Assembly (NCBI GenBank): GCA_021234155.1
Contig: JAJEKV010000004.1
Location: forward strand, 10,728,109-10,792,108
DNA length: 64,000 bases
Reading direction: 5' to 3'
Source: Isoetes taiwanensis
Lineage: Eukaryota; Streptophyta; Lycopodiopsida; Isoetales; Isoetaceae
Positions 5,574 through 6,823 of this stretch are shown piece after piece (position 1 is the first letter of the stretch; each line of letters opens with the position of its first letter). The notes under the pieces are model-generated. The model was not told the DNA's origin and ran no database searches. It was given only the letters and a program-made list of their open reading frames with translations. The translations under genes and the position numbers were made by a program.

Positions 5574-6823
5574 ATGGCCAACACCAAGAGTGCTCCGGAT
5601 CCTACCAACCTTACTATCGCCCAGATTTATGCCTTGATTGCTCGGAATATGGCTACCGACCCTGCTTTGATCGACATACTCCTAGACGAGCTAGTAAACA
5701 GGTTTGAGAACAATGATATGATTCCCTATCCTATTTACCACTTCTCGGGGCCATTTTTGATCCGGTTGAACCTTCGCCAGCTCCCTTATACCATGCCCGA
5801 GCAACCTGACTTGGTCATGATGCTGATTAAGTTCTACCCTCCCGAATGTGAAGGGCACACAGAGGAGGAGGACATAAGGGGGGAGGCCGATCGCATCCGA
5901 AACTTGGCCAGAGAGGATGACCGCCAAGAGATAGAACGAGCCGATATGGCGGCTCGGGGCAGGGAGTACAGGTACCTCGGGGATGGGGTCGCCGTCATAG
6001 ATGGCAGGGCCATTGAGATTCCCCCATACCGATGGGATGAGGATTCCCGCACCTTCGTATGGGGGGAAATTCCAGATATTAGCATAGATTATTTAATAAC
6101 AATCCAGATTGACATGGCCCAGAGACCCGACCGGTACCATGCTGCCGTAGCGCCGCACAATATTTTGCTCAAGTTGAAGAAGATCTTAGGAGGGCCCGGG
6201 AATTCCGGGAAGAGCAGGATAGGATAGAACGGGAGAAAGCGGAGAAGGCCCGGCAGGAGCAGCCGGACCAGCAGGGTGCAGGAGCATCCGGGAGTGGGCA
6301 GGGGCCAATCCCGACAGAGCATACAACTGTGAAGCACCGGAGGAAAGCCGTAGCCCGGAAGCCCGGCAGTCACTACAAGGAAAAATTAAAGACTGTCGGG
6401 GCTTTTGGGAAGAACGCGAGCTCCAGCCGGAGACAGCAGCGGGTGGACGCGTCCCGACTAGCTGTTGGGGCCAAGACCGTGCCTGTCTCAAGGGGGCCGC
6501 CTCCAAACCCTGCTCCACAGAGGAAGCCCCACCGATATAGACCCGGTACCGTGGCCTTACGGGAGATCCGTAAGTTTCAGAAGTCGACTCAACTTCTGAT
6601 ACGGAAGCTCCCCTTCCAGAGGTTGGTCCGGGAGATTGCACAGGAGTTTAAGACCGACCTCCGCTTCCAGACCTTTGCCATTTTGGCACTTCAAGAGGCT
6701 GCGGAGGCTTACCTGGTGGCACTTTTTGGTGACGCCAATCTTTGCGCGATCCACGCAAAGAGGGTAACCATAATGCCTAAGGATTTAGCCCTCGCCCGCA
6801 GGATTCGGGGGGAGCATCCTTAG
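5574..6823 (+). CDS. ORF1: fusion protein with a C-terminal histone H3 core
   Basis: Starts at ATG 5574 (CTATGGCC). Residues 1 to about 190 match no family I recognise. They are followed, after one frameshift near 6120-6155, by a Glu/Arg-rich coiled coil (about 6160-6260), a Gly/Ser/Gln stretch, a basic linker (6329-6520), and then 99 residues at 6524-6820 aligning without indels to histone H3 positions 37-135: KPHRYRPGTVALREIR, LLIRKLPFQRLVREIA, FKTDLRFQ, ALQEAAEAYLV, NLCAIHAKRVTIMPKD and LARRIRGE. The loop-1 length is that of canonical H3, not CENH3. The normal H3 tail (K4, K9, K27 region) is absent. Stop TAG 6821-6823. The shift is probably a sequencing error, since both sides are open. 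H3 assignment is very secure; the function of the fusion is unknown. Confidence 0.9.

Follow-up and report, generated by a model that had tools for sequence, protein, structure and literature searches.

Can a plant retrotransposon carry a histone gene of its own, and what would such a gene do for it? The question is raised by a stretch of 64,000 nucleotides from the quillwort Isoetes taiwanensis (assembly GCA_021234155.1, contig JAJEKV010000004.1, positions 10,728,109 to 10,792,108 of the forward strand), which we refer to as the window, and in which a histone H3 core forms the C-terminus of an open reading frame (ORF1) in a Ty3/gypsy long terminal repeat (LTR) retrotransposon. The core is present in many copies of this element, which keep a common order of reading frames and result from independent insertions, and the N-terminal tail of H3 has been replaced. 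Judged by its sequence, ORF1 is a genuine gene belonging to a large family of Ty3/gypsy retrotransposons with a chromodomain, and we put at roughly 0.55 the probability that it represents a captured host H3 core acting, together with host H4, as an H3 variant in chromatin.

A histone H3 core in ORF1

Positions 6524-6820 of the window encode 99 residues which align without a gap to H3 positions 37-135, and 13 of the 99 differ from angiosperm H3.3 (counted by eye), in agreement with the initial annotation, which had reported about a dozen changes. The Pfam Histone profile proposed there as a check (PF00125) matches the core with an E-value of 5.6e-42, and its best solved relative is H3.3 in the PDB (E 1.1e-53), both placing a histone fold with an H3 core sequence in ORF1; at the protein level, all 16 copies compared share 84-90% identity with the core of host H3.3. 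The core also lies, as annotated, between the primer binding site (PBS, from 4790) and gag of a chromodomain element (PF00385, E 4.9e-8). ORF1 is not the single frame that had been drawn from 5574 to 6823, as the window copy is frameshifted and reads as two frames, 5574-6227 (217 amino acids, aa) and 6329-6823 (164 aa), whilst in other genomic copies it is uninterrupted. The centromeric variant CENH3 is recognised by a longer loop 1 and a divergent core, and we rejected this identity since the 99 residues align ungapped to canonical H3.

The H3-bearing frame across the genome

We searched the genome (1,658,258,908 bases in 1110 contigs) with the H3 piece of the window, and all 150 scored places, the window included, matched at 84-99%, with no stop in 127 of the 150 rows (manual count). 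These places were taken from 9752 first-look candidates, a number which, like the 9031 and 7664 of two other searches, is not a true copy number. A canonical H3.3 query returned 15 full-length places at 97-99%, which are the host genes; below these, and set off from them by a gap, came 135 places at 72-87%, assumed to be element copies, part of which were fetched. For closer comparison 35 copies picked for an open frame were fetched (20 of 8.5 kb and 15 of ca. 1.4 kb), every one of which encodes one protein of 400-426 aa (31 within 410-421 aa); the H3 C-terminus is kept in 34, the last residues being altered in L030. Across the 20 long stretches, the exact PBS core occurs in 16, ORF2 in 20, ORF3 in 17 and reverse transcriptase (RT) in 17, and the complete order PBS-ORF1-ORF2-ORF3-RT, which the initial annotation had suggested looking for in other copies, is found in 15, or in 17 if the PBS need not be exact. 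In 12 of the 14 copies whose 5′ ends were examined, the LTR head precedes the H3 piece by ca. 3 kb, and no two of these 14 have similar 5′ flanks, from which it follows that the copies are independent insertions.

A second sample was found through ORF2 instead of H3: within the 37 best ranks of 91 copies, 20 were missing from the H3 list, and 19 of these were taken. The H3 core is retained in all 19 (18 with 50-99 of the 99 residues, one with 18), many of them frame-broken, hence no family member lacking it came to light among them. Ownership of the histone by the element is thus borne out by the genome-wide copies, and not by the second copy in the window ('copy 2') which had been offered for it. 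Contamination was rejected as a source, as the family sits on scaffolds of up to 53 Mb and shares E77 with host H3: this residue is found in all three host H3s fetched (of 15) and in 23 of 35 element copies (the remainder being 11 with Q and one gap), and 11 of 12 other inspected proteins have D at position 77.

Purifying selection on the core

Using the Nei-Gojobori method on 595 pairs from the 35 open-selected copies, the ratio of nonsynonymous to synonymous substitution rates (dN/dS) was 0.031 in the H3 core, the comparison that the initial annotation had called for, 0.114 in the N-terminal domain (N-domain) and 0.246 in the tail. When three subfamilies (9, 9 and 3 copies; 21 of the 35) are set against each other, the core value is 0.023-0.031 at a dS of 0.8-1.2, and since the codon paths of Arg, Leu and Ser inflate dN, core dN/dS is if anything overestimated. 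For every ORF2-found copy, differences were counted against whichever of three reference copies was nearest, and here codon position 3 holds 382 of 560 core differences (68%), compared with 61% in the N-domain, 52% in the tail and a neutral expectation of one third. As these copies were not picked via H3, the constraint on the core is not a product of selecting for H3 similarity. The substitution patterns demonstrate purifying selection on the H3 core, and a histone part left nearly unchanged suggests that the element uses H3 to act on plant chromatin.

A tail-swapped H3 and its origin

In one open copy, L009, the protein comprises an acidic N-domain (residues 1-185, charge about -17), a predicted helix (186-232), a basic linker and tail up to residue 321 (about +12) and the H3 core (322-420, about +10). 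AlphaFold 10-residue mean confidence is 75-87 in residues 11-50 and 141-230. The N-terminal tail of H3, with K4, K9, K27 and K36, is absent from ORF1 and replaced by a basic tail unrelated to H3, position 36 being R in 32 of 35 copies and K in three. Within the core, T45, R49, K64, R83, F84, C110, H113, K115, R116, T118, D123 and L126 are invariant in all 35, and these are known to take part in contact with DNA, in pairing with H4 or in the H3-H3′ interface; DNA-contact and H3-H3′ positions are almost unchanged throughout. All 35 likewise carry Y54F, S86T, H87F, V89I, G102A, E105G, T107A, I124L and Q125A, not all of which occur in the diverged copies L048 and L049, and E59 is altered in 31. 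The N-domain had no match with E below 0.001 among PDB or viral models (best viral E 0.015, not trusted), no sequence relative at E up to 0.001 among 6150 candidates (proteins of 231-735 aa sharing 5-residue words), and was not seen by eye in 12 inspected proteins (of 5268 matches, 120 listed), which were joined or repeated histones of host type.

L048 and L049 are deeply diverged (over ORF1, L049 shares 47% identity with L009) and nearer to canonical H3 at some sites, and both have the N-domain motifs together with the H3 core. In a tree built on 98 core residues, a branch with support of 90/88 has all 16 element rows on the same side. A single capture is favoured on these sequences, mainly because the N-domain is shared, though it is not proven. 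The capture is old, as element and fetched host H3 cores share 67-72% DNA identity in 16 copies, and synonymous differences to host H3 are saturated (proportion pS ca. 0.9).

What the element may do with a histone

We propose that an ancestral element captured a host H3 from residue 37 to its end, behind a protein of its own. ORF1 is presumably translated, and the product would be an H3 variant in which an acidic N-domain is joined to a coil and to a basic tail foreign to H3, and whose core would pair with host H4 and enter nucleosomes or H3-H4 complexes. The foreign N-terminal part, having no K4, K9 or K27 sites, may leave chromatin with few silencing marks and/or serve as an anchor for element complexes. 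With H4-pairing and DNA-contact sites strictly kept and the tail exchanged, ORF1 is most simply read as an H3 variant of this kind. As to what is gained, escape from silencing by means of a tail-less H3 is a tentative proposal, and we hold equally tentatively the fuller idea that the family builds its own chromatin, in which nucleosomes of tail-swapped H3 and host H4, unable to carry the usual H3K9/K27 marks, would be selected for anti-silencing or for targeting beside the chromodomain integrase. A chromatin anchor for element proteins is only slightly less probable, whilst we think it unlikely that the protein packs element nucleic acid or, to the same degree, that it competes for histone chaperones.

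Several observations weigh against an H3 variant at work in chromatin, or against parts of that account. The 35 copies behind the dN/dS values were selected for openness, and an open frame of at least 400 aa is found in only two of the 19 ORF2-found copies (L052 and L061), of which L052 has an 11-residue gap in the core and L061 a core split over two frames; in L056 the core match is only 39.6% identical with two stops. AlphaFold 10-residue means fall to 32-47 from residue 321 on, that is in the H3 part, in a model from which the H4 partner is absent. The changes at positions 54, 86, 87, 89, 102, 105, 107, 124 and 125 could be detrimental to chaperone or nucleosome use. In 16 of 35 proteins there is an ARKS motif, similar to the K9/K27 sites and potentially methylated (an AHK motif occurs in 13, and L048 and L049 have neither). 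For the single capture, the bootstrap is unsettled, with no fork starred, and L048 stands on the host side in the midpoint drawing.

The selection data bear most directly on a passenger H3, multiplied with the element and functionless, as in fungal hAT transposons, for which capture with decaying copies is documented (PMC6710886, in part). Many quillwort copies are broken too, but the core is under tighter constraint than the rest of ORF1, its dN/dS is 0.02-0.03 between subfamilies at a dS of about 1, and the third-position share of 68% in copies not selected by H3 largely refutes a passenger, which we regard as very improbable. A single late insertion of host H3 into the window copy, or an assembly artefact, is next to inconceivable: the window copy is indeed interrupted and its second copy arose by duplication, but the 150 of 150 matching places, the core in 19 of 19 ORF2-found copies and the LTR heads seen next to unrelated sequence in 12 of 14 copies refute it, and the N-domain motifs and H3 core common to lineages 47% identical overall exclude the late host-gene insertion that the initial annotation had named as a test.

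The two remaining rivals grant the core a function. That the H3 fold works outside nucleosomes, binding H4 or chaperones to disturb host chromatin assembly, or carrying ORF1 into the nucleus, is unlikely. Many histone chaperones are highly acidic, and the strongly acidic N-domain (about -17 in L009) may be likened to them. Furthermore S86T, H87F and V89I, seen in 35 of 35 copies, lie on the assembly-choice motif of alpha-2 that part of PMC9145170 describes; the DNA-contact residues, which would not be needed for such a use, are nonetheless also kept. More improbable is a structural part of the particle or nucleoprotein, in which H3 core dimers would pack element RNA or cDNA, a role which would fit the basic core (about +10) and tail (about +12) of L009, the long predicted helix at 186-232 and the position of ORF1, no other long frame standing between it and the PBS. 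The element, however, has its own gag region, and the near-perfect retention of the residues that pair with H4 points to a need for H4.

Few host proteins are as conserved as histones, and plants silence retrotransposons largely via H3 modification. If the reading of ORF1 as a chromatin H3 variant is true, the element would counter silencing directly, by means of a tail-less H3 kept under strong purifying selection, and the family would offer a natural experiment on the abilities of an H3 that has lost its tail.

Structure of the element and its duplication

The host element has the hallmarks of a chromovirus-type Ty3/gypsy retrotransposon in the window (Table 1), namely TG..CA LTRs, a target duplication, a PBS and a polypurine tract, with RT, RNase H and integrase in gypsy order and a C-terminal chromodomain (PF00078, PF17917, PF24626 and PF00385); PF17921 in pol falls just under the profile-search cut-off. 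Relatives of its RT are 36-63% identical among 120 matches listed, and those named by organism are all from seed plants.

Table 1 Coordinates of element features in the window
Feature	Position	Strand	Remarks
Target site duplication CAACA, 5′ side	3223-3227		mate 62859-62863
5′ LTR (TGTGACG...ATCACA), 1561 bp	3228-4788	+	95.0% identical to 3′ LTR
PBS, TGGTATCAGAGC core	4790-4802	+	plant tRNA-Met type; exact in 16/20 genomic copies
ORF1 first part, acidic N-domain	5574-6227	+	no known relatives, no Pfam; frame lost before 6227 here
ORF1 second part, linker end and basic tail replacing the H3 N-terminal tail	6329-6523	+
ORF1 C-terminus, H3 core (H3 37-135) and stop	6524-6823	+
ORF1-ORF2 spacer	6824-7024	+	AATAAA, TGACGTCA palindrome, A/T box, pyrimidine tract before ORF2 ATG
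ORF2, 466 aa	7025-8425	+	no Pfam, NCBIfam or PHROG family
ORF3, 139 aa	8691-9110	+	no known family
gag region, broken, approximate limits	9365-10661	+	Ty3_capsid weak, E 0.041
Zinc-knuckle-like motif in gag	near 10480	+	by eye
pol: RT, RNase H, integrase start	11028-12965	+
Integrase C-terminal part and chromodomain	13346-14143	+	PF24626, PF00385
Another 3′ LTR, fragment	28854-29385
5′ LTR of duplicated unit ('copy 2')	42550-44087	+
Polypurine tract preceding 3′ LTR	61272-61284	+
3′ LTR, 1574 bp	61285-62858	+

Comparison of the window with itself shows a direct duplication, in which 12-16012 and 39321-55241 are ca. 90% identical at a spacing of 39.3 kb. Both units have an identical junction of copia LTR and gypsy LTR and the same CAACA flank, and their long alignment contains 729 mismatches and 633 gap openings, a gap-rich divergence which may reflect decay, unpolished long-read sequence or false assembly duplication. 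ORF1 of 'copy 2' is open in fragments only. 'Copy 2' is hence a duplicate of the same insertion and lends no independent support to element ownership of H3. The initial annotation had both LTRs defined, and a pair is found; the pair matched by CAACA is 3228-4788/61285-62858, with the duplication internal to what reads as one insertion. A Ty1/copia element (12-3226 and 36476-42549) stops exactly at the start of the gypsy LTR in both units, and palindrome-like inverted repeats of 2.7-3.1 kb lie downstream of integrase at 14633-17296 and 53866-56873.

Between ORF1 and ORF2 the spacer contains a TGCTGACGTCAGCA palindrome, in the TGACGTCA form in 14 of 18 sequences (the window and 17 other copies), and in the same set the pyrimidine tract ends in TAG immediately before the ORF2 ATG; such signals could represent a promoter of its own or a splice acceptor. 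By eye, similar acceptor-like tracts are also present ahead of ORF3 (near 8652) and of gag (near 9362). Neither ORF2 nor ORF3 matched a family in Pfam, NCBIfam or PHROGs, and their dN/dS values are 0.09 (five open sequences) and 0.10 (four open sequences), respectively. We rejected ORF2 as a second histone, given no family match and an uninformative structure model (mean confidence score, pLDDT, of 34). This low-confidence model has a repeated strand-strand-helix pattern.

Comparison with known systems

The open-access literature on histones in mobile elements and viruses, subscription papers being outside this scope, yielded no retroelement-encoded histone in the parts covered. This is consistent with the initial annotation, which knew of no plant LTR retrotransposon described as having a histone-fold ORF; it left unmentioned the fungal hAT case. 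The word 'histone' is absent from the main texts of the papers on Isoetes taiwanensis (PMC8566536) and Isoetes sinensis (PMC10541799). According to part of PMC8566536, the repeat library was cleared of any repeat that had BLASTx hits to plant proteins, and the histone-bearing family could thus be absent from that library and from its 38% repeat figure. Repeat annotation which discards sequences resembling plant proteins could hide histone-bearing elements.

The nearest parallel is the capture of host H3 by hAT DNA transposons in the Dothideomycete fungi Pseudocercospora fijiensis and Pyrenophora tritici-repentis (PMC6710886, here and below from parts of the paper), in which, as in the quillwort, a mobile element multiplies a host H3. 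The fungal carriers, however, are DNA transposons with terminal inverted repeats, whilst the quillwort element has LTRs and reverse transcriptase, and we accordingly rejected it as an H3-carrying hAT. All captured fungal copies are inactivated by repeat-induced point mutation (RIP) in P. fijiensis and many are potentially active in P. tritici-repentis, and they derive from a captured transcript or retrocopy, with no mention in those parts of fusion to an element domain. Large DNA viruses (for example Manila clam xenomavirus and Dishui Lake phycodnavirus; parts of PMC9145170) likewise represent selfish elements with a single H3, 73-87% identical to that of possible hosts and often with an altered or longer tail, but their extensions are of 35 and 68 residues, compared with a 320-residue part in quillwort ORF1; 'retrotranspos' and 'retrovir' are absent from the main text of that study of DNA-virus histones. 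The CpBV-H4 of Cotesia bracovirus (PMC5423620, in part) is also a histone of a mobile element and reportedly becomes part of host nucleosomes, acting via its N-terminal tail, but it is an H4 which a wasp polydnavirus delivers to an insect, whereas the quillwort protein is an H3.

Amongst plant LTR retrotransposons, Ogre, Retand, Athila and SIRE have additional ORFs alongside gag-pol. These are heterogeneous, and some encode domains resembling those of the host, the plant mobile domain for instance being present in 57% of Ogre elements (parts of PMC6317226, where 'histone' occurs once, concerning chromodomain binding). The same paper describes the partners of many plant chromovirus chromodomains as still unknown, and an H3 made by the element makes such partners newly testable. 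What sets the extra ORF of the quillwort apart from those of Ogre and its like is a strongly constrained histone core, carried in a chromodomain element.
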